Origin: Hamadaea tsunoensis DSM 44101
Lineage (GTDB): Bacteria > Actinomycetota > Actinomycetes > Mycobacteriales > Micromonosporaceae
Reading direction: 5' to 3'
NCBI RefSeq assembly: GCF_000428945.1
Contig: NZ_AUAX01000007.1
Coordinates: forward strand, 310,001-374,000
DNA length: 64,000 bases
The translations under genes and the position numbers were made by a program. Below, piece by piece: positions 49,522 through 63,888 of the stretch (position 1 is the stretch's first letter; each line of letters starts with the position of its first letter). The notes under the pieces are model-generated. The model saw only the letters and a program-made list of their open reading frames with translations, was not told the origin of the DNA and did not search any database.

Positions 49522-52440
<2,919 letters not shown>

Positions 52441-53946: not shown

Positions 53947-55092
53947 TCACAGGCCCAGGGAGCGGCCGATGATCTCTTTCATGATCTCGTTGGTGCCGCC
54001 GTAGATCGGCATCATGCGGGTGTCCATGTACGCCCGTGCGACCGGATACTCGACCAGGTACCCGTAGCCGCCGTGCAGCTGGAGGCAGCGGTCGACGACC
54101 CGGCGCTGCAGGTCGGTCGTCCACCATTTCGCCCGGGCCGCCCCGACCTCGTCCAGCCGGCCGGCGACGTGGTCGAGGACGCACTGGTCGGCGTACGTGC
54201 GGGCGATCTCGACCTCGGTGGACATCTCGGCCAGCTCGAAGCGTACGTGCTGGAATTCGCCGAGGGTCCGGCCGAACACCCGGCGGTCGCGGCAGTAGGC
54301 GATCGTCTCGGCCAGCACCGCCTCGGCGGCGGCCACCGCGGCGACCGCGATGCTCAGCCGCTCCCGGGGCAGGTGGCGCATCAGGTACTGCCAGCCGCCG
54401 CCCTCGTCGCCGAGCCGGTTCGCGGCCGGTACGCGTACCTCGTCGAAGAACAGTTCGGCGGTGTCCTGGGCGTGCAGCCCGATCTTGCGCAGGGCCGGTC
54501 CGCGCGTGAAGCCGGGCATGTCCCGTTCGACCACGAGCAGGGTCAGCCGCCCGCGGGTCTGCCGGGCGGGATCGGTGACCGCCGCGACGAGCACGATGTC
54601 GGCCTGCAGGGCGTTGCTGATCAGCGTCTTGGACCCGGTGAGCACGTAGTCGTCGCCGTCCCGGCGGGCCGAGGTGCGTACGCCGGCCAGGTCGCTGCCC
54701 GCGCCGGGTTCGGTGAGCGCCAGGGCGGCCAGGGTCCCGCCGGAGCAGAAGCCGGGCAGCCAGCGTCCGCGCTGCTGCTGATCGGCCAGGCCGAGCAGGT
54801 AGGGGCCGATGATGTCGTTGTGCAGCGCGAGGGCGAACCCCGCCGTCCCGGTACGCGCCAGTTCCTCCGTGATCAGCGCGGCGAACCGGTAGTCGGCGCA
54901 GTCGCCGCCGCCGTACTCGGCCGGCATGTCGAGCCCGAGCAGGCCCTGCCGGCCGGCGGCCAGCCAGGCGGACCGGTCGACCCGGCCGGCCTCCTCCCAG
55001 GCGGGATAGTGCGGGAGGACTTCGCGGCGGACGAACGCGCGTACGGTGTCGCGGAACGCGAGCTGATCCTCGGTGAGGACGGCGTCCCTCAT
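53947..55092 (-). CDS. acyl-CoA dehydrogenase, last gene of the biosynthetic cluster
   Basis: A 381-residue FAD enzyme. LTEPGAGSDLAGVRTSARRD is the first family signature (FAD and acyl contacts), and LQLHGGYGYLVEYPVARAYM with MPIYGGTNEIMKEIIGRSLG the second, in which the catalytic base glutamate sits in GGTNEIMKE. It would introduce an alpha,beta double bond in an acyl-CoA or, as in several NRPS clusters, in a carrier-bound acyl or amino acid. It begins 31 bp after the E1 beta stop, with a 34-bp tandem duplication covering the junction. Confidence 0.93.
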   Translation of the reverse strand: MRDAVLTEDQLAFRDTVRAFVRREVLPHYPAWEEAGRVDRSAWLAAGRQGLLGLDMPAEYGGGDCADYRFAALITEELARTGTAGFALALHNDIIGPYLLGLADQQQRGRWLPGFCSGGTLAALALTEPGAGSDLAGVRTSARRDGDDYVLTGSKTLISNALQADIVLVAAVTDPARQTRGRLTLLVVERDMPGFTRGPALRKIGLHAQDTAELFFDEVRVPAANRLGDEGGGWQYLMRHLPRERLSIAVAAVAAAEAVLAETIAYCRDRRVFGRTLGEFQHVRFELAEMSTEVEIARTYADQCVLDHVAGRLDEVGAARAKWWTTDLQRRVVDRCLQLHGGYGYLVEYPVARAYMDTRMMPIYGGTNEIMKEIIGRSLGL

Positions 55093-55154
55093 GCGAGCGC
55101 TCCGGTGGCGAGGTCGGCGTGTCTCATGCGAGCGGTCCCGTGGCGAGGGCCGCG
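55088..55154. repeat. 34-bp tandem duplication at the E1 beta/acyl-CoA dehydrogenase junction
   Basis: CTCATGCGAGCGCTCCGGTG at 55088 recurs at 55122 as CTCATGCGAGCGGTCCCGTG; 29 of 33 positions agree. One copy holds the end of E1 beta, the other the start of the dehydrogenase gene. Confidence 0.75.
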
Positions 55155-56116
55155 TAGATCGTGTCGGCGCCCGCCACGACCTGGGCTTCGAGCTGCGGGG
55201 CGGCCGGGATGATCGAGTCCGCCGAGCTGACCAGGGTCACCGGGTGCCGCAGCCGGACGGCCGCGTTGATCCGCGCCGCGACGTGCTCGCCCCACGTGCC
55301 GCCGGCGGTGCTCTCCTCCACGACGGACACCCGGCCGGCGGCGGTCAGCAGCGGCAGCAGCGGGTCGAGGTCGAGCGGGTAGAGCCGGGACGGCACCACG
55401 ATCTGGGTGTTCTCCTCGCGGTCGAGCAGCAGCCGGCGGGCCGCCGCGAGCGTCCGGCCGAGCATCCCGCCCGGCGCGAGGACCAGGTGGTCCACGGGCA
55501 GGCTCCGGTCGGCGTACGCGCGGGCGTGCGTGCCGAGGCGGTCGAAGGAGAACAGGTCGTCGAGGCGGTCGCCGGCCGGCAGCCGCTCGCCGTAGAGGGA
55601 CTTGTCCTCGACGAACAGGCACGGGATCGCCGCCGCGGTCATCTCGGCGAACACCGCCGCGGCCGGGTGCAGCGGCGACAGCTCGTAGATCGCCAGGTCC
55701 GGTACGCCGATCAGGTGCTTCTGCGGGCTCTGGCTGTGCGTCGCGCCGTAGCCCCGGCGGCCGCCGGTCGGGCAGCGCACGATCAGGCGCATCGGCAGCC
55801 GCCGACCGTACATGCTGACGGACTTGGCCGCGAAGTTGACGATCTGGTCCAGCGCGAGGAAGAGGAAGTCGGCGAACATGATCTCGACGATCACCGTGTT
55901 CCCCGTCAGGGCCAGCCCGCAGGCCACGCCGGTGAAGCCGGCCTCGCTGATCGGCGTCGCGCGGACGCGGCCCGGGAAGCGGGTCGTCAGCCCCTTCGTG
56001 ATCTTGAAGGCGCCGCCGTACGGGTCGGCCACGTCCTCGCCCAGCAGGTACGCCGAGGGGTCCGCCTCGAACAGCTTGTGCAGTGCGGCGTTGAGGTCGT
56101 CCGCGACGCGGTTCAC
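55124..56116 (-). CDS. 2-oxoacid dehydrogenase E1 component, beta subunit
   Basis: A 330-residue transketolase-like subunit. LLGEDVADPYGGAFKITKGL is the conserved start of E1 beta, ATPISEAGFTGVACGLALTG holds the glutamate that activates thiamine diphosphate, and MRLIVRCPTGGRRGYGATHS matches acetoin/pyruvate-type E1 beta with the HSQS loop. With E1 alpha it decarboxylates a 2-oxo acid and reductively acylates the lipoyl group of E2. GTG start overlapping the E1 alpha stop (GTGA). Substrate not evident; acetoin- or pyruvate-dehydrogenase-like. Confidence 0.93.
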   Translation of the reverse strand: MNRVADDLNAALHKLFEADPSAYLLGEDVADPYGGAFKITKGLTTRFPGRVRATPISEAGFTGVACGLALTGNTVIVEIMFADFLFLALDQIVNFAAKSVSMYGRRLPMRLIVRCPTGGRRGYGATHSQSPQKHLIGVPDLAIYELSPLHPAAAVFAEMTAAAIPCLFVEDKSLYGERLPAGDRLDDLFSFDRLGTHARAYADRSLPVDHLVLAPGGMLGRTLAAARRLLLDREENTQIVVPSRLYPLDLDPLLPLLTAAGRVSVVEESTAGGTWGEHVAARINAAVRLRHPVTLVSSADSIIPAAPQLEAQVVAGADTIYAALATGPLA

Positions 56117-57039
56117 GCGGCGGCCCACTGCGTGCCGGCCCACTGCCCGGCGGGTTCGCGGTTCGCCACGTCCGCCAGGACCGCGGCCATCCGCGCCCGC
56201 TGCCGCTCGTCGATCTCGTCGAACGTGACCGGGTCCAGCGCGCGCGTGCGGGCGTACCAGTCCGCCGATCGCAGGGCCGCGAGCTCGGCCGGCGTACGCG
56301 AGTCGTCGCCCTTGCTGTGCGGGCCCAGCCGCCGGGTGCGGAACTCGACGATCAGCGGACCGCCGCCGTCGCGTACCGCCGCGAGGAGCGGGCCGACGGC
56401 CGACCGGATCTCGCCGACATCGTCCGTGTCGACACCCGCGTACGCGATCCCGAACGCCGCCGCGCGCCCGGCGATCGTTCCGGCGAGCTGCCGGTCGGTG
56501 GGTGTGGACTGCGCGATGCCGTTGTTCTCCACGAACAGCACGAGCGGCAGCCGCCACAGCGCGGCCAGGTTGAGCCCCTCGTACACGGCGCCCTCGCCGA
56601 ACGTGCCGTCGCCGACGAACGCCGCGGCCAGCTGCCCGCGCCCGGACTGCTGCAGGTGCAGCGCCACCCCGGCCGCCACCGGCACGCTCTGCCCCTGCAC
56701 GCCGGTAGACAGGTAGTCCGGCCGCCACAGGTGCTGGCTGCCGCCCACCCCGCCGCAGACCCCGCCGGCCCGGCCCATGATCTCGGCGAGCAGGCCCGCC
56801 GGATCGTCGTACCGGGCGAGGTAGTGGCCGTGTCCCCGGTGGTTGCTGAACACGTGGTCCCCGGCGAGCAGCGGCGCCAGCGCGACGGGGATGTACTCCT
56901 GGCCGAGGCAGGTGTGCGTGGTTCCGGCGACCCGGCCCTGCGCGAACAGCTCCAGCAGCGCGGTCTCGAAATGCCGGATGAACAGCAGCGCCGCGAGATC
57001 GGCCCGGGCGACGACGAGTGGGGGTGCCGGGTGCGCCAT
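56113..57039 (-). CDS. 2-oxoacid dehydrogenase E1 component, alpha subunit
   Basis: A 308-residue subunit. HVFSNHRGHGHYLARYDDPA is the pyrophosphate-side motif; the thiamine diphosphate/magnesium motif runs from AAAFVGDGTFGEGAVYEGLN to LFVENNGIAQS (GDG...NN). TRRLGPHSKGDDSRTPAELA is the regulatory loop region, which lacks the serine block of mammalian E1. It resembles AcoA-type short E1 alpha proteins. It overlaps the ACP gene by ATGA and the E1 beta gene by GTGA, so ACP, E1 alpha and E1 beta are made together. Confidence 0.93.
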   Translation of the reverse strand: MAHPAPPLVVARADLAALLFIRHFETALLELFAQGRVAGTTHTCLGQEYIPVALAPLLAGDHVFSNHRGHGHYLARYDDPAGLLAEIMGRAGGVCGGVGGSQHLWRPDYLSTGVQGQSVPVAAGVALHLQQSGRGQLAAAFVGDGTFGEGAVYEGLNLAALWRLPLVLFVENNGIAQSTPTDRQLAGTIAGRAAAFGIAYAGVDTDDVGEIRSAVGPLLAAVRDGGGPLIVEFRTRRLGPHSKGDDSRTPAELAALRSADWYARTRALDPVTFDEIDERQRARMAAVLADVANREPAGQWAGTQWAAA

Positions 57040-57266
57040 CAGGCGGCCACGCCCTTGCCCGCCAGCATCTCCCGCAGCCGCGCCACCGAGGTGCCGGACG
57101 CCATCTCGTCGCCGGTGAAGGTCACGTCGTAGGCGTCCTCCAGGGAGATCATGATCTGGACCTGCTTGATGCTCGTCCACTCGCCGTGCGTCGTGTGGCT
57201 GATCTCGCCCTGCGTGGCGGGGTCGATCTCCAGTACGTCGCAGACGATCTTCTCCAAGGTGGGCAT
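57039..57266 (-). CDS. acyl carrier protein
   Basis: A 75-residue ACP. The phosphopantetheine serine lies in THGEWTSIKQVQIMISLEDA; the usual DSL is replaced by TSI, and the following LEDAYDVTFTGDEMASGTSV is the normal helix II-III region. AGGAAG precedes the ATG. Its position between the exporter and E1 alpha suggests that it receives the acyl group produced by the E1/E2 enzymes. The TSI sequence may affect which PPTase recognises it. Confidence 0.9.
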   Translation of the reverse strand: MPTLEKIVCDVLEIDPATQGEISHTTHGEWTSIKQVQIMISLEDAYDVTFTGDEMASGTSVARLREMLAGKGVAA

Positions 57267-57277
57267 GTCTCTTCCTT

Positions 57278-58588
57278 TCATCGGATGCGGCGCCGGACCA
57301 TCGGTACCGCGCAGGCGAGGGCCAGCACGTTCACGACGGCCATCGTGGTGAAGAGCGGTTCGTAGTCGTGCCGGGCCAGGACCGCGCCGACGCCGATCGC
57401 CGCCGCGAAGTAGCAGAGGTTGAAGCTCAGTGCGACGAACCCCGACCCCGTCTGCTCCAGCACCGTCAGCAGGGTCAGCATGATCCCCACGCAGGCGAGT
57501 GAAGGACCTGTGATTTTCAGGAACTCGTAGGTCACGCGGGCTGTCTCCGCATCGGGCGCCGCCAGGTCCGCGATTCTTCCGGCGAACAACCACAGGAATA
57601 CGCTGATCGGGGCGTACATGAGTGTCGCCAGGGCCGCTCCGCGGCGGACGGTCGTGATGGGCGGGGTGCTCCGGTCCTGGTTCACCAGGATCGCCACTGC
57701 TGTTCCGAGGCCCATCGCGGGGACTATCAGAACGATCTGGGTGGTGCTGGCGATGCCGTAGCCGGCGACCGCTGCTTCGCCGAACCTGGCCAGGACGCGG
57801 ATGGTGGCGCTGTTGGCGAGGAAGAGGACGACGAAGGTGCCGCCCACGGGTACGCCGACCGCCGCCAGTGCTCTCCAGGCTTCGCCGTGGCCACCGTGAT
57901 CGGTGTGTCGGGTGTGGATGATCGCGCTCAGCAGCCCGTGCCGTTGCAGCAGGACGGCAGCCGCCGCCAGGCCGACAGCCGCCGACGCGGCGACGGCGAG
58001 CGGGAAGCCGTTCAATCCCAGGCCCAGTACGCCGCCGAAGACCGCAACTCCGGCCACCTGGATCACCATGACCGTGACCGCCACGCCGGACGCCTGGCCG
58101 GGGTGGCCGGTGGCGCGGAGCGCGGCGGTGAGGATCATGCACGGGACTTCGAGGACGACGACCAGGCACATCAGGCGCAGGAACGGGACGAAGGAAGTTC
58201 CGGGGTGGGCGCCGAGCGCGGCGGCGAGCGGGGCCGCGGCGGCCGCCACGAGCGCGGCGGCCGCGCCGATCGCGGTCAGGCCGGCGGTCAGGAGCGGCCG
58301 GACCGTGCGGCCGACCGCGCCGGGAGCCGTCCCCGCGCGCGCCACCGCCACCAGGGTGCTGATGTCGATGCCGACCTGGAAGGCCGACAGGATGAACGAC
58401 GCCGGTAGGTAGAGCGAGCGTACGTAGAGGGCCTCGGGACCGAAACGGCCGATGAGCACGACGATGAGCCACTGGGCGCTCAGCGCGAAGCCGTTCGCCA
58501 GCGCGAGGGGCGTCGCCAGCGCGACGATCCGCCGGTAGCCCGGGCCGTCGCGGACGGGGACGGCGGCGAGGGTGTCGGTGCCGCTCAT
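57278..58588 (-). CDS. MATE-type exporter
   Basis: A 436-residue membrane protein with about twelve hydrophobic segments. RIVALATPLALANGFALSAQ and YVRSLYLPASFILSAFQVGI open the first half; VGVPVGGTFVVLFLANSATI and VAGYGIASTTQIVLIVPAMG open the second, a typical MATE pseudo-repeat. It should export the product of the cluster by sodium or proton antiport. It lies two bases after the KASIII-like gene and eleven before the ACP gene. Confidence 0.9.
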   Translation of the reverse strand: MSGTDTLAAVPVRDGPGYRRIVALATPLALANGFALSAQWLIVVLIGRFGPEALYVRSLYLPASFILSAFQVGIDISTLVAVARAGTAPGAVGRTVRPLLTAGLTAIGAAAALVAAAAAPLAAALGAHPGTSFVPFLRLMCLVVVLEVPCMILTAALRATGHPGQASGVAVTVMVIQVAGVAVFGGVLGLGLNGFPLAVAASAAVGLAAAAVLLQRHGLLSAIIHTRHTDHGGHGEAWRALAAVGVPVGGTFVVLFLANSATIRVLARFGEAAVAGYGIASTTQIVLIVPAMGLGTAVAILVNQDRSTPPITTVRRGAALATLMYAPISVFLWLFAGRIADLAAPDAETARVTYEFLKITGPSLACVGIMLTLLTVLEQTGSGFVALSFNLCYFAAAIGVGAVLARHDYEPLFTTMAVVNVLALACAVPMVRRRIR

Positions 58589-58590
58589 CG

Positions 58591-59490
58591 TCAGTGCCGC
58601 AGGACCATGACCGAGGCGACCGTGTTGACCCCCGACGCCGTCATCATGTACGCGTCCCCGGGCCGCAGCCCGCCCGCGGCCGTCACATCGGCATAGTTGA
58701 TGAATGCGTCCGACGAGAACGAGTGCGCCTGCTTCGGCACGTTGTCGAGGAAGATCCGCTCGATCGGGAGGCCGAGCTGCCGGGCGATGCGTACCCACGA
58801 GACGCGGTTGACGTTGTGCGGCAGGACGACCGTGATGTCATCCCAGGTAAGCCCGGCCGTCGCGACCGCCTCGTTCATCGCGTCCACGAACACGTCGTGA
58901 TACGAGTCCTGATAGGACACGACCCCGTCGCCGGTACGCGACGCGTACGCGAGCACGCGGTCCCGGTCCCCGCCATCGCCCACCACGACGGCGGCGGCGC
59001 CCTCGGCCATGATGGTCTGGTTCGGGATGTGCTGGACCTCGGGCAGGCTCGCCTTCTCGCCGGTGAGGACGAGGGCGAGGCCCCCGGGCACCGCGTCGCG
59101 GGCGAGCAGCCGGCCGGCGGTGTGCACCGCGAGCAGGCCCGAGGCGCAGGCGTGCTCGGCCAGCGCGAAGCAGATCACGTCGTCGGGCAGCCCCAGCTTG
59201 GCCGCGATGTCATGCAGCGGGAACGGCCGGGTGTACGCCATCGGCAGCTCGCTGCGGGCCGCGATCACATACCGGATCCGGTCGGCGTACGCGGGCAGGC
59301 CGGTGAGGCGTTCGGCGGCGGCCAGGACCTGGTCGGGCCAGTCGGTCCCGGTCGCCATCGCGACGTCCCGCAGGCCGTGCAGGCGTTCGAAGACGCGTAC
59401 GTCCATGGGGGACAGTCCCAGGTGGTCGCCGAGGGAGGCCAGCGGCACCGACGGCGGGACGAACGCGGCCACCTCGTGCAGGGCGGTCAT
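58591..59490 (-). CDS. KASIII-like condensing or acyltransferase enzyme
   Basis: A 299-residue thiolase-fold protein. The nucleophile is C115 in FALAEHACASGLLAVHTAGR; H225 lies in VVLPHNVNRVSWVRIARQLG. Where normal KASIII has an Asn in GNTSSAS, this one reads AHSFSSDAFINYADVTAAGG, with D261 and N265 as candidates. It is shorter than FabH (about 317 residues). KASIII relatives such as CerJ transfer acyl groups to oxygen or nitrogen rather than making C-C bonds, and the altered site points that way. It overlaps the A-T gene by ATGA. Confidence 0.88.
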   Translation of the reverse strand: MTALHEVAAFVPPSVPLASLGDHLGLSPMDVRVFERLHGLRDVAMATGTDWPDQVLAAAERLTGLPAYADRIRYVIAARSELPMAYTRPFPLHDIAAKLGLPDDVICFALAEHACASGLLAVHTAGRLLARDAVPGGLALVLTGEKASLPEVQHIPNQTIMAEGAAAVVVGDGGDRDRVLAYASRTGDGVVSYQDSYHDVFVDAMNEAVATAGLTWDDITVVLPHNVNRVSWVRIARQLGLPIERIFLDNVPKQAHSFSSDAFINYADVTAAGGLRPGDAYMMTASGVNTVASVMVLRH

Positions 59491-61241
59491 CGCGCGCTCC
59501 GCAGGGCGCTCACGGCCGAGGCGAGGTCGGCGACGGTCTCGGTGTCGTAGAAGACGTCCGACGCGACCTCGACCCCCCAGCGGTCGGAGATCGCCGCCAC
59601 CACCCGCATGACGGCCAGCGAGTGGCCGCCGACCTCGAAGAAGTCGTCGGCGGGACCGACCCGCCCGGCGCCCAGCACCTCGGCGACGAGCGCGCAGAAC
59701 TCGGTGGTGAACGGGTCGGCGCCGGCCGGCGCGACCGGCGCCGCGGCGGCCACCGGGTTCACCTCGGCGAGCGCGGCCCGGTCGATCTTGCCGTTGGCGG
59801 TCAGCGGGAACTCCTTCAGCACCAGGATCGAGGTCGGCGTCATCGCGGAGGGCAGCGTCCGCGCGGCGTGGTCCCGGACGGCCGAGGGCGTGGGCGGGGC
59901 GTCCGGGTCGGCCGGCATCACGTACGCGATCAGTTCCTGGCCGCGGACGAGGGCGACGGCGGCCGCGACCTCGGGGCAGCGTTCCAGGCCGGCCTCGACC
60001 TCGCCGAGTTCCACCCGCTGGCCGCGGATCTTCACCTGGCTGTCGGACCGGCCGAGGTACTCCAGGTTCCCGTCGGTACGCCACCGGCAGCGGTCGCCGG
60101 TCCGGTACAGCCGGCCGAGCGGGTGCTCGACGAAGGCCGCGGCGGTCAGGTCGGGCGCGTCCGCGTACCCCCGGGCGACGCCGAGGCCGCCGATGTGCAG
60201 CTCGCCCGGCTCCCCGACGGCGGCCTCGGTCCCGTCCTCGGCGAGCACGAGTACGCGGGTGTTGGCGATCGGCCGGCCGATGCGGATCTCGCCGGGCTCG
60301 GCCGGTACCGGCCACACCGTCGACAGGATCGTCGTCTCCGTCGGCCCGTACGCGTTCACGAGGCCGCCGAGGCGCTGCGTCAACGCGGTCGCGAGGCGGG
60401 CCGGCAGCGCCTCGCCGCCGGTCATGCCGATCAGGTCCGGCGCGTGCAGGCCGGCGTCGACCAGGGCCTGCCACTGCGACGGGACGGCCTGCATCCGGGT
60501 CACGCCACCGGTCGCGGGCCGGCCGGCCGTGATCAGGCGGACCAGGCGGGCGGCGTCGCGTACCTCGGCGCGGGTCGTGATCGTCAGCGTGGCCCCCGTC
60601 GCCACCGGTACGCACAGCTCGGCGAGCGAGATGTCGAACGTGGGCGGGGCCATGCTCAGCCAGTGCTCGCCCGGCCCGACCCGCAGCACGGTCCCGAGTT
60701 CGGTGACGACGTTCAGCAGCGCGGCGTGGTCCACCTCGACCGCCTTGGGCCGCCCCGTCGACCCGGAGGTGTAGATGAGGTACGCCGGATCCGACGGCTG
60801 GGGCACGCGTACTCCCGGGGTGTGCCGCTCGTCGGGAGCGACCACCGGCAGGGGCGCGGGGACCGGGCGGTCGGCGACCACGGCGGCGGCCCGGGCGTCG
60901 GCGAGCAGGAAGGCGGTGCGGTCGGCCGGATGCTCGACGTCGAGCGGAAGGTAGACGCAGCCGGCCCGCCAGACGCCGAGCAGGGCGGCGAGCAGGCCCG
61001 CCGACCGGTCGACCAGGACGCCCACCCGGGCCCCCCGCTCCACCCCGTACGCCAGCAGGCGGCCGGCGATCGACCCGGCGGCGGCGTCGAGTTCGGCGTA
61101 GGTCAGCGTGGTATCTCCACTATGGACGGCGACCGCGTCCGGCGCGGTCGCCGCCCGGGCGGCGAACAGGTCGAGCACGGTGACGGGCGGCAGGGCGCGG
61201 GCGTCTCCCGCCGACCAGTCGGCGGGCACCAGTCCGGGCAT
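59487..61241 (-). CDS. NRPS module, adenylation-thiolation
   Basis: A 584-residue two-domain synthetase. The A domain has A3 AYLIYTSGSTGRPKAVEVDH, A4 PTFDISLAEL, A5 NAYGPTETTI, A7 LYRTGDRCRW, A8 GRSDSQVKIRGQRVELGEVE and A10 NGKIDR. The T domain has FFEVGGHSLAVMRV with the carrier serine. A hand alignment to GrsA gives the specificity code DIAQMGAILK, closest to glycine-type codes I know (6 of 10), but this needs a proper predictor. No C or TE domain is present; both functions must come from neighbours. Confidence 0.93.
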   Translation of the reverse strand: MPGLVPADWSAGDARALPPVTVLDLFAARAATAPDAVAVHSGDTTLTYAELDAAAGSIAGRLLAYGVERGARVGVLVDRSAGLLAALLGVWRAGCVYLPLDVEHPADRTAFLLADARAAAVVADRPVPAPLPVVAPDERHTPGVRVPQPSDPAYLIYTSGSTGRPKAVEVDHAALLNVVTELGTVLRVGPGEHWLSMAPPTFDISLAELCVPVATGATLTITTRAEVRDAARLVRLITAGRPATGGVTRMQAVPSQWQALVDAGLHAPDLIGMTGGEALPARLATALTQRLGGLVNAYGPTETTILSTVWPVPAEPGEIRIGRPIANTRVLVLAEDGTEAAVGEPGELHIGGLGVARGYADAPDLTAAAFVEHPLGRLYRTGDRCRWRTDGNLEYLGRSDSQVKIRGQRVELGEVEAGLERCPEVAAAVALVRGQELIAYVMPADPDAPPTPSAVRDHAARTLPSAMTPTSILVLKEFPLTANGKIDRAALAEVNPVAAAAPVAPAGADPFTTEFCALVAEVLGAGRVGPADDFFEVGGHSLAVMRVVAAISDRWGVEVASDVFYDTETVADLASAVSALRSAR

Positions 61242-61265
61242 GGGGGTGTCCTTGTCTCGTGTATG

Positions 61266-62579
61266 TCAGCGGGCCGCGGCCCGCACCATGAAGGCTTCGA
61301 TGTGGCGCAGCATGTCCGGACCGGCCGCCCGCCACGCGGTGTCGGCGTGGCAGGCCAGTGTCAGCAGCGCGCCGAGGGGCTGGTGCTGGACGGACAGGAT
61401 GAACCGGGAACCGCCGGGTCGCGGCGGGTCCTCGGTGACGGCACCCTGGACCGCCGGGTCGACGAAGCGGATGCCCTCGCCGCCCAGGGACGTGGTGTTG
61501 AGGTGGCCCGGCACGACCGAGTTGTCGAGGAAGTTGAACCGGGCCGCGGTGGGACCCTGATGCGCGTAGGCGCCCAGGAGTTCGGTGGCCAGGCCGGCGG
61601 CCACGGCCGGGTCGAGGTTGGCGAACCGGGCGCCGTCGAGCTGCTGGGCGCCGATCCCGGCCGGGTCCGCGCCGCGCCTGATCACCACCGGGGCGGGCAT
61701 GACGGCCTTGCGGACCGAGGCCTGCGTACCTTGGGTCAGCCGGTTCGCGTTCAGGGTCTGGACGCCGACGACAGCAGTGCCCTCGACCTCGCCGATCGCG
61801 TCCGCGAAGGCGGTCAGGTAGAGCGTGGCCGGGCGGATGCCGCGCGCCGCCAGCCCTTCAGCGGCATCGGCGGTCTTCCACGACGCCAGCCGGAAGGCGT
61901 GCAGCGTCTTTTCTCCCGCTCGGGGCGAGGGCGGCGGCGTCCAGCCGTCGAGTCCGTCGCGCAGGGTCTCGTACTGGCGTCGCCAGAAGGCGGTCGCGCG
62001 GCGGGCGTACCGGGCGCCGTCCGGGCCGGTCTCCCACAACGCGGTGTCGAGCGGCTGCTCCGGGTCGGCCTCCCACGGCTTGCCGTCACCGGCCCGCACC
62101 CGCAGCGCGGTGTCGAGGTCGGCGCCGAGGACCTTCCAGCCCCATGCGTCGATCACGGCGTGGTCGACGACCGTCCCGATGCGACGCACGACGCCGTCGC
62201 CGGTGGCGAGCACGAACCGCACCGGCCACTCGGCGGCGAGCCGGAACGGGGTGTCGCGCGCGGTCGCGTACGCCGCCTGCGCCTCGGGTCCGTCCGCGAC
62301 GATCCGCAGATACGTGTCACGGGATGCCCCGTCCACTGTGCAAGCGGTTTGCAAGCGCTGACCGTCCGGCTGACGCTCGATGAGCGTACGCAGTCCTTCA
62401 TGCCGGCTCAGGACATCCTGGACGGCGGCGGTGGCCACCTCGACCGGCAGCTCGTGCCCGGGGAACTCGACAGCCGCATTGGTCGCCGCTGACGAGGAGT
62501 TTTCCGCCTCGTCGCCGAGGTCGGCGTACCACTCGCGCTGCGCCCAGGTCAACGGGCCGGTGCGTGCCGGTAGCGCCAT
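61266..62579 (-). CDS. free-standing NRPS condensation domain
   Basis: A 437-residue condensation-fold protein. The motif normally HHxxxDG reads TVVDHAVIDAWGWKVLGADL: the first histidine is aspartate, the second (catalytic) histidine and the aspartate remain. SSAATNAAVEFPGHELPVEV and DVLSRHEGLRTLIERQPDGQ are the usual donor-side start, and RFNFLDNSVVPG is the later conserved strand. It should join the carrier-bound acyl group to the amino acid on the A-T protein. It starts the eight-gene minus-strand operon. Confidence 0.88.
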   Translation of the reverse strand: MALPARTGPLTWAQREWYADLGDEAENSSSAATNAAVEFPGHELPVEVATAAVQDVLSRHEGLRTLIERQPDGQRLQTACTVDGASRDTYLRIVADGPEAQAAYATARDTPFRLAAEWPVRFVLATGDGVVRRIGTVVDHAVIDAWGWKVLGADLDTALRVRAGDGKPWEADPEQPLDTALWETGPDGARYARRATAFWRRQYETLRDGLDGWTPPPSPRAGEKTLHAFRLASWKTADAAEGLAARGIRPATLYLTAFADAIGEVEGTAVVGVQTLNANRLTQGTQASVRKAVMPAPVVIRRGADPAGIGAQQLDGARFANLDPAVAAGLATELLGAYAHQGPTAARFNFLDNSVVPGHLNTTSLGGEGIRFVDPAVQGAVTEDPPRPGGSRFILSVQHQPLGALLTLACHADTAWRAAGPDMLRHIEAFMVRAAAR

Positions 62580-62763
62580 GAGTTACCCCCGAGTTTCCGT
62601 TTCGCGCTCCGCGACTCAGTAGATTGAAATATTGCAGACATCTGTCGGTTCGTGCCACCCTTTGCGTCAAGAATCTGCACGAGACCTTCCGGATCATGTT
62701 CGGCCCCGGGTGTGCGCGGCCGGACGCCGGAGGTCCCAAGGGGACGGACGGGAGCCGGGGACC
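62580..62763. promoter_or_regulatory. divergent promoter region of the cluster, with TTGCAG box
   Basis: TATTGCAGACATCTGTCGGT at 62630-62649 contains the inverted pair CAGA-CA-TCTG and matches 17 of 20 bases of the box upstream of the glycoside hydrolase at 19839. It lies 51 bp upstream of the condensation-domain gene and 115 bp upstream of the E2 gene, so a regulator bound here could control both. Confidence 0.45.
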
Positions 62764-63888
62764 GTGGCCGAGATACGGGTGCCCAAGCTGAACGCCAACG
62801 ACAGCGCGTACGTGCTGGTGGACTGGCTGGTCAAGGACGGCGAACCGGTACGCGCCGGCGCCGGGCTCGCCGAGGTCGAGACGTCGAAGGCGGTGGAGGA
62901 GATCCCCGCGCCGCAGGACGGCTACGTCGCGCACGCGGTGGCCGCCGGGGCCGAGGTCGAGCCCGGACAGGTGATCGCGCGGGTGTCCGCGAGCCCGGCC
63001 GGCGCGGCGGTCCCGGGCGTGCCCGTCCCGGATCGGTCCCCTGCGGAGGATCAGGCCGGCGGCGGTCAGCTGATCACCGCGCCGGCGCGGGCACGGATGG
63101 CAGAGCTCGGCGTCACCGAGGAGCAGGTACTGGCCCTGCCCGTGAAACTGGTACGCAGCGCGGACATCGAGACGCTGGCAGGCTCGCCGTCCGCGGCATC
63201 CCCGTCATCGGTGCGGGCGGACCCGGTGGAAGGCGAGCCGCTGTCGAGGGTGCAGCGTGCCGTGGGCTGGGCGGTGTCCACGTCGCACACGACCATCCCG
63301 GCCGCGTACACGGTGTCGAAGATCGACATGGGGGCGGCGCAGGAGCGGGCCCGCCGCCTCATCCGCCAGGTACGCCGCCCGGTCACGATCGCGAACCTGT
63401 TCATCGAGGCGGTCGCGGCGCTGCACGGGCGGTTCCCGGCGTTCTACTCCCGGTTGACCGCCGACGGCTCGGCCGTGATCCCGGCCGAGGCACCGCACAT
63501 CGGCGTCACCGTCGACGTCGGCACCGGCCTGTTCGTGCCCGTGCTGCGGAACGCCGCCCGGCTGTCCACCGAGGAGATCGCGACCCGGCTCGCCGACCTG
63601 CGTACGCGGGCCGCCGAAGGCGCGTTCCGCCCAGCCGAGCTGGAAGGGGCGAACATTGGCGTCACTCTGCATACGGAGGCGGACGTCGTCCTGGCGATCC
63701 CGTTCATCTTCCCCGGCCAGGTGTGCGCGCTCGCGTTGACGACACCGCAGGCGGAGCTCTACCTCACCGACGACGGCGACGTGGCCCGGCGCTGGGTCGC
63801 GTACGTGGGACTCGCGTACGACCACCGGGTGATCAACGGCCGCGAAGCCGCCCAGTACCTCGACGCCCTCCGCGCGATCCTCGCGTAG
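62764..63888 (+). CDS. 2-oxoacid dehydrogenase E2, dihydrolipoyl acyltransferase
   Basis: A 374-residue E2. The lipoyl domain is residues 1-78, with the modified lysine in AEVETSKAVEEIPAPQDGYV; a peripheral-subunit-binding domain (LITAPARARMAELGVTEEQV) follows an Ala/Pro linker, and the catalytic domain ends YVGLAYDHRVINGREAAQYL. The usual DHRxxDG is DHRVING, as in Azotobacter E2p, so activity is expected. GTG start. It is divergent from the eight-gene operon but matches its E1 subunits; no E3 gene is present in the window, so the housekeeping E3 must serve. Confidence 0.94.
   Translation: MAEIRVPKLNANDSAYVLVDWLVKDGEPVRAGAGLAEVETSKAVEEIPAPQDGYVAHAVAAGAEVEPGQVIARVSASPAGAAVPGVPVPDRSPAEDQAGGGQLITAPARARMAELGVTEEQVLALPVKLVRSADIETLAGSPSAASPSSVRADPVEGEPLSRVQRAVGWAVSTSHTTIPAAYTVSKIDMGAAQERARRLIRQVRRPVTIANLFIEAVAALHGRFPAFYSRLTADGSAVIPAEAPHIGVTVDVGTGLFVPVLRNAARLSTEEIATRLADLRTRAAEGAFRPAELEGANIGVTLHTEADVVLAIPFIFPGQVCALALTTPQAELYLTDDGDVARRWVAYVGLAYDHRVINGREAAQYLDALRAILA

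Follow-up and report, generated by a model that had tools for sequence, protein, structure and literature searches.

Gene content of the cluster

The stretch of DNA analysed here (hereafter, the window) comprises 64,000 nucleotides of Hamadaea tsunoensis DSM 44101 (C7:310001-374000) and contains, towards its end, a biosynthetic gene cluster in which the E1alpha, E1beta and E2 components of a 2-oxoacid dehydrogenase-like system accompany a discrete acyl carrier protein (ACP), nonribosomal peptide synthetase (NRPS) enzymes and a relative of ketoacyl-ACP synthase III (KASIII). Pfam domains and the ends of the open reading frames (ORFs) confirmed nine genes (Table 1), together with the order, the tight packing and the divergent E2 that had been described in a sequence-only reading of the window. 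Eight of the genes form a minus-strand run, from the free-standing condensation (C) domain to the acyl-CoA dehydrogenase-like flavoenzyme (ACAD), in which no gap exceeds 31 bases and three gene pairs overlap, and the E2 gene is divergent from this run. The C gene is separated by 24 bases from the gene for the adenylation-thiolation (A-T) didomain, which overlaps the KASIII-like gene by 4 bases; KASIII and MATE are 2 bases apart, and MATE and ACP are 11 bases apart. The ACP stop and the E1alpha start have one base in common, E1alpha and E1beta overlap by 4 bases, and 31 bases lie between E1beta and ACAD. The weakest of the nine family assignments are those of the ACP (19.5 bits in PF00550, cut-off 20.8) and of the C domain (46.9 bits in PF00668, cut-off 30.6).

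Table 1. Genes of the cluster and its surroundings. Coordinates are those of the window; the prefix L009 denotes the contig stretch C7:366001-383907, which extends past the window end
Feature	Coordinates	Strand	Family matches and remarks
C domain, free-standing, motif VVDHAVIDA	61266-62579	-	PF00668 46.9 bits
A-T didomain NRPS, Gly-like code DIAQMGAILK	59487-61241	-	PF00501 239.5, PF00550 52.7, PF13193 38.9 bits
KASIII-like enzyme, C115, H225, H256, D261	58591-59490	-	PF08541 46.7 bits
MATE-family exporter	57278-58588	-	PF01554 55 bits
Discrete ACP, WTSI serine motif	57039-57266	-	PF00550 19.5 bits
E1alpha, putative NapB/RenH type	56113-57039	-	PF00676 151 bits
E1beta, transketolase-type beta subunit, DPYGGAF and RGYGATHSQ	55124-56116	-	PF02779, PF02780
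ACAD, acyl-CoA dehydrogenase-like flavoenzyme	53947-55092	-	PF02771/02770/00441
E2, lipoyl (ETSK) and acyltransferase (DHRVING) domains	62764-63888	+	PF00364 48.3, PF00198 135.9 bits
Methyltransferase	L009:8015-9280	-	past window end
Second A domain	L009:9290-10954	-	past window end
Alpha/beta hydrolase	L009:11003-11872	-	past window end
TetR regulator	L009:11908-12495	+	past window end
Secreted GH9-type cellulase with fibronectin-like and cellulose-binding parts	49522-52386	-	adjoins cluster; by eye
GNAT-type acetyltransferase	~52.7-53.6 kb	+	adjoins cluster; by eye

The E1, E2 and ACP genes and their relatives

A search with E1alpha of 394 genomes of the class, including that of H. tsunoensis, yielded 24 matches in 17 genomes at E <= 1e-60, the 23 non-self matches in 16 other genomes being 56-68% identical to the query. 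The corresponding search with E2 of 300 genomes of the family gave matches at E <= 1e-25 in 29 of them (again including its own), and the cluster E2 is 54% identical to that of genome G105. For 20 of the 23 other E1alpha matches, and for 10 places drawn from the 32 other E2 match rows, the surrounding stretch of about 20 kb was fetched, with two places of genome G516 and a contig-end place of G279 omitted. All 30 loci have E1alpha, E1beta and E2 side by side on the same strand, and this co-occurrence is an independent result because each locus was picked by a single subunit, either E1alpha or E2. An A domain with 200 or more aligned residues is present in 26 of the 30. Four plasmid records found by E1alpha all carry E1beta and E2 as well, and a Streptomyces plasmid is annotated with the same set, namely ACP, E1alpha, a transketolase C-terminal protein and E2. 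Outside the actinomycetes, plasmid p-YT9A of Paenibacillus polymyxa (L233) encodes E1alpha (47%), E1beta (42%), E2 (28%) and ACPs beside polyketide synthase genes and is, by sequence similarity, a related cassette.

It is hard to credit, given this gene company, that E1 and E2 are ordinary acyl-CoA-producing enzymes of metabolism placed here by chance. Although the catalytic domain of E2 is a PF00198 acyltransferase, as such a role would have it, the ACP and E1alpha genes overlap, A domains lie near most of the relatives, and the genome possesses other E1_dh copies (C6, 237 bits, and C28, 175 bits, versus 150.9 bits for the cluster E1alpha).

In the E1alpha tree, the window protein, the 30 cassette rows, four plasmid-record rows and RenH of the renieramycin pathway form one clade (100/99), which is separate from 15 E1alphas linked to KASIII-like genes (100/97; see below) and from five other E1 rows that include acetoin- and pyruvate-dehydrogenase-annotated E1s. 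Two E1beta motifs, YGGAF and RGYG[PA]THSQ, which were derived in the present analysis and not taken from a paper, are found in the window, in 30 of 30 cassettes and in RenH; neither occurs in two control E1betas, and, among 17 KASIII-linked loci, the 11 with a readable E1beta lack both (the other six gave no E1beta match).

The E2 proteins of the cassettes share the motif DHRxxNG (30 of 30; DHRVING in the window) and, in 28 of the 30 loci (not L227 and L229), a lipoyl motif of the form E-T/S-S/D-K, which reads ETSK in the window. Canonical E2s of pyruvate and branched-chain 2-oxoacid dehydrogenases have DHRxxDG. The control E2 from Novosphingobium reads DHRAIDG, and the Shinella E2 is cut by the end of its stretch. 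The window protein, with DHRVING and not DHRxxDG, departs from a canonical E2 in this motif. Pfam detected only lipoyl and catalytic domains in it, with no match to the E3-binding (peripheral subunit) domain at E <= 0.01. The ACP, the sole discrete one among the called genes, is 36-39% identical to the ACPs of seven of the 35 E1-bearing loci tested (L201, L203, L204, L222, L224, L231 and L233), all of which have a W-T/S-S motif like that of the window protein, the identities to L201, L203 and L204 being 36-38%; in L202, an ordinary GGHS carrier precedes E1alpha in place of the W-T/S-S ACP.

Judged by these features, ACP, E1alpha, E1beta and E2 very probably constitute a two-component transketolase-ACP cassette of the NapB/C/D kind. 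By analogy with such systems, a ketose donor and a glycolyl unit appear likely, and glycolyl from a ketose phosphate is likelier than an acyl group from a 2-oxo acid because the set is of the two-component transketolase-ACP kind. The sequence-only reading had E1 and E2 load an acyl starter of the cluster's own making onto the ACP by decarboxylation of a 2-oxo acid: the tie to the cluster and to the ACP holds, and it is the donor that changes. Decarboxylation of pyruvate or a branched 2-oxo acid is an unlikely alternative; in its favour, E1alpha scores best against pyruvate dehydrogenase models and structures (NCBIfam TIGR03182, 184 bits; human PDHA1, 126 bits) and a lipoyl E2 is the usual partner of oxidative decarboxylation. 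Against it, the phylogeny and the E1beta motifs side with RenH and the cassette E1s rather than with the control E1s, and the relative described in the dnacin work uses a ketose according to that account (PMC7570522).

The KASIII-like enzyme and its cluster class

The AlphaFold2 model of the KASIII-like protein (pLDDT 93.9) has a KASIII fold. In an alignment of 27 sequences, C115, H256 and D261 are conserved in all 27 and H225, counted by eye, in 26. FabH (KAS III) employs a Cys-His-Asn catalytic triad; H256 occupies the site of the Asn in two aligned FabH rows, which argues against FabH identity. The Cys and the His-Asp pair (C115, H256, D261) fit an acyltransferase of the CerJ/ChlB3 type, but the loss of the first condensing His expected of that type is not seen, H225 being kept. 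Because Cys-His-His plus Asp are retained, the residues are compatible with condensation as a possible activity of the enzyme. The ACAD matches 2pg0 best in the PDB (390 bits), with the long-chain acyl-CoA dehydrogenase 8w0t at 370 bits, and its PRERL motif is one that we take to denote a base of the long-chain/isovaleryl type.

Among genome contigs, 233 relatives of the KASIII subfamily were found, of which 80 were kept. The survey of KASIII loci, from which five near-identical and three duplicate loci had been removed, comprised 130 non-redundant loci, each at most about 20 kb long except L077 (37 kb), several of them cut by contig ends, and was searched by tblastn at 1e-6 with the window proteins. 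Matches were obtained to ACAD in 61 loci, A-T in 54, C in 38, the second A domain in 37, MATE in 21, E1alpha in 16 (none at 55% identity or more) and E1beta in 11, and to E2, the methyltransferase, the hydrolase and the TetR regulator in none of the 130. The window ACP likewise matched in none of these loci, because this query is short and diverged. Locus L097 of Streptacidiphilus jiangxiensis combines relatives of ACAD (63%), A-T (47%), KASIII (44%), MATE (35%) and C (30%), with no match to E1 or E2. The KASIII-like, A-T, ACAD and MATE genes belong to a wide actinomycete cluster class. Conversely, a KASIII of the window type is absent from all 30 cassette loci beyond weak fragments of 22-27% identity.

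Since the KASIII half and the cassette half each recur apart, the window represents a combination of two recurrent modules. KASIII and E2 matches co-occur in 12 other genomes of the family, and KASIII and E1alpha matches in four other genomes of the class; in none of these 16 do they lie within 25 kb on one contig, and they are on different contigs in six of the 12 and three of the four, respectively. The separate recurrence of the halves, in the surveys and in these 16 genomes, is what one would expect of two neighbouring clusters or a recent fusion, with KASIII, A-T, ACAD and MATE making a product of their own and the cassette and C domain serving the second A domain and the methyltransferase. 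This arrangement is improbable, however, as genes of the two halves alternate along one strand, MATE being 11 bases from ACP and E1beta 31 bases from ACAD, and a single discrete ACP is found among the called genes. None of the other genomes examined showed the cassette combined with KASIII-like, A-T, ACAD and MATE genes.

Several further features of the KASIII loci were recorded. Of 125 KASIII-like loci, 96 encode a member of a family of proteins of about 285 amino acids (e.g., L105:10950-11804, plus strand); its gene shares the strand of KASIII in all 64 loci in which both were called, and the family is possibly a partner of this KASIII subfamily; one member tested had no Pfam match, and no member was seen among the window genes. 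In some KASIII loci, L035 and L050 among them, E1alpha and E1beta genes, but no E2 match, accompany the KASIII gene together with a free C domain, an AMP ligase and an ACP. A gene of the glyoxalase/dioxygenase family is also present in L035, where genes for an FMN oxidase and for an aminotransferase were recognised by eye. Distant KASIII relatives (27-33%) are encoded on plasmids of Rahnella (L078), Agrobacterium vitis (L079) and Gemmobacter (L080), where they are clustered with genes for acyl-CoA dehydrogenases and with carrier/ligase genes, joined in L078 and L079 by a gene annotated as diaminopimelate decarboxylase.

The C domain and the A-T didomain

In the C-domain tree, the window protein groups (100/100) with free C proteins that lie near E1/E2 in two Dactylosporangium loci, L220 (genome G105) and L221 (G044), to which it is 50-51% identical, and apart from those C proteins in the tree that come from KASIII loci. 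The condensation motif of NRPSs is HHxxxDG; the window motif, DHAVIDA, keeps the second His and the Asp and lacks the first His and the Gly, and both Dactylosporangium proteins read DHSAVDG. The presence of a free C domain and an A-T protein agrees with the earlier view that a carrier-bound unit is joined to one amino acid. That this amino acid might be glycine, as also suggested earlier, is in keeping with the Gly-like code of A-T, read by eye from motifs with a position numbering that we assume to apply, but the code (DIAQMGAILK) differs at four of 10 positions from DILQLGVIWK of L202, which is among the cassette loci with glycine-type A domains (L202, L205 and L220). As three of the four changes are toward smaller side chains, a residue larger than glycine is possible, and glycine itself is a guess from the code.

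Genes past the window end

The contig runs past the window to 383907 and the cluster continues there: the next 4.5 kb encode a methyltransferase, a second A domain, an alpha/beta hydrolase and a TetR regulator, followed by ahcY-like and htpG-like genes (by eye). The earlier statement that the cluster has no thioesterase or regulator holds inside the window only, because the window edge cuts the cluster. No E3 gene was recognised by eye among the ORFs of the window and L009, where no family search for E3 was made. The best PDB match of the methyltransferase is 5wmm (138 bits, residues 27-420 aligned), which we take to be TioS, an NRPS with an interrupted, N-methylating adenylation domain. The methyltransferase part and the A-domain remnants of the L009 protein align with 5wmm; unlike 5wmm, the L009 protein is a separate protein without an A-domain core, encoded beside a complete A domain, and looks as if it had been excised from an interrupted adenylation domain with remnants of that domain retained. 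On the other side of the cluster, the adjoining cellulase and acetyltransferase genes probably lie outside it.

Proposed pathway

From the gene set, spacing, families, motifs and gene company that the DNA displays, we infer the donor, the unit, the order of steps and the product as follows. E1 would draw on a ketose phosphate for a two-carbon unit, bound as dihydroxyethyl-thiamine diphosphate, and oxidise it onto the lipoyl arm of E2, which would pass the resulting glycolyl (hydroxyacetyl) group to the discrete ACP. The steps that follow are more tentative, and doubtful taken together: the free C domain would join glycolyl-ACP to the amino acid on A-T (Gly or a small residue), the second A domain and the stand-alone methyltransferase would probably supply an N-methyl amino acid, ACAD would desaturate a carrier-bound intermediate, and the KASIII-like enzyme would form a further bond, either by carbon-carbon condensation or by acyl transfer; the alpha/beta hydrolase may release the product and MATE may export it. 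A bolder version, a long shot as a whole, envisages a minimal assembly line of entirely discrete (type II) proteins: glycolyl-ACP derived from a sugar would be amidated to aminoacyl-T by the free C domain and cyclised by carbon-carbon condensation on the KASIII-like enzyme (Cys-His-His plus Asp), giving a small ring compound of a kind made by no known transketolase-ACP pathway.

With the cassette, glycolyl loading and downstream assembly taken together, this is the explanation that we favour, with moderate assurance, and several points weigh against it. The E1alpha tree supports rather than proves the grouping, because its rows were selected by similarity to the window protein, the program warned of long branches, that of RenH included, and no row was obtained for L040 or for two E1 loci of the same genome. 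Donor specificity of E1 is not readable from sequence, and the highest E1alpha scores are the pyruvate dehydrogenase ones given above. The ACP falls short of its Pfam cut-off, and four positions of A-T depart from the Gly code. In the window, E1beta and E2 are encoded by two genes, and in L201, L203 and L204 they share one frame; a NapE-type KASIII is absent, the window KASIII being 22-27% identical over 110-139 residues to those of the same three loci. DHRxxNG is missing in RenI, the E2 counterpart in the renieramycin pathway, and an A domain was not seen in four of the 30 cassette loci (L204, L213, L222 and L226). Finally, the link to NapB/C/D runs through RenH, gene architecture and a published gene table, NapB/C/D being compared as described there.

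These observations suggest that actinomycete NRPS clusters make recurrent use of transketolase-ACP loading as a cassette, and that a quite different module, KASIII/A-T/ACAD, can be its partner. The cassette motifs could help to find such clusters in genomes. As the components are separate small proteins, the questions of donor (ketose or 2-oxo acid) and acceptor (ACP or CoA) are directly testable by mass spectrometry.

Comparison with known systems

The KASIII-like enzyme resembles ChlB3 (C113, H296 and D301, as described, versus C115, H256 and D261) in having a Cys and a His-Asp pair five residues apart, and CerJ, aligned with the window protein, shares the Cys and the His-Asp pair. The first His, however, is lost in CerJ (Val) and, by the published description, in Pau29 (Asn), whereas the window enzyme keeps H225; release of the product through this enzyme, as the sequence-only reading had it, is therefore unsupported.

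Two-subunit E1-like thiamine enzymes that move a two-carbon unit provide another parallel. Rif15, a two-subunit transketolase, has been shown to transfer a ketose-derived C2 unit to rifamycin S (PMC6002545), and such a role is proposed for AviB1/AviB2 and for Pau11/Pau12, which resemble them (PMC4425429). On this model, E1alpha and E1beta of the cluster could move a C2 unit straight to a small-molecule acceptor, with E2 and ACP incidental. We consider this very improbable: the published descriptions by which these sets are told apart name no E2 or ACP for them, whereas the window has a lipoyl E2 and a coupled ACP, and E2 accompanies E1 in all 30 cassette loci.

Transketolase-ACP loading is said to be used for a few antitumour alkaloids, and the primary paper on the NapB/C/D system of naphthyridinomycin is reportedly that of Peng et al. 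2012. In the partial match from renieramycin biosynthesis (Candidatus Endohaliclona), RenH is 44% identical to the window E1alpha and 32% to E1beta and carries the same E1beta motifs (YGGAF and RGYGxTHSQ), but has E1alpha and E1beta fused in one protein; RenI is 22% identical to the window E2, with DHRVLTG where the latter has DHRVING.

In dnacin B1 biosynthesis, DinU (306 aa) and DinS (754 aa) are given as homologs of NapB and NapD and are credited with producing a hydroxyethyl unit from xylulose 5-phosphate and delivering it to the ACP DinT (76 aa), with DinQ (336 aa) as a NapE-like KASIII (PMC7570522). The arrangement in L203 and L204, with a KASIII of 336 aa, E1beta-E2 in one frame (749 and 779 aa as called), a WSS-type ACP and E1alpha, parallels the published dnacin table. 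The earlier view that no characterised cluster is known with this gene set is unsupported as regards the E1/E2/ACP/NRPS part, since NapB/C/D, DinU/T/S and RenH, as far as described, are of the same kind; by this analogy, the loading half of the cluster is already known and is not new. As described, NapB/C/D and DinU/T/S share with the window an E1alpha of about 306 aa, a discrete ACP of about 76 aa, E1beta and E2 functions and NRPS partners. They differ in that the size of DinS fits E1beta-E2 in one protein where the window has separate proteins, in that they are accompanied by a KASIII of the NapE/DinQ type whereas that of the window belongs to a different subfamily, and in that, according to the same descriptions, they feed multimodular NRPSs, whereas single-module enzymes alone are seen beside the window cassette.

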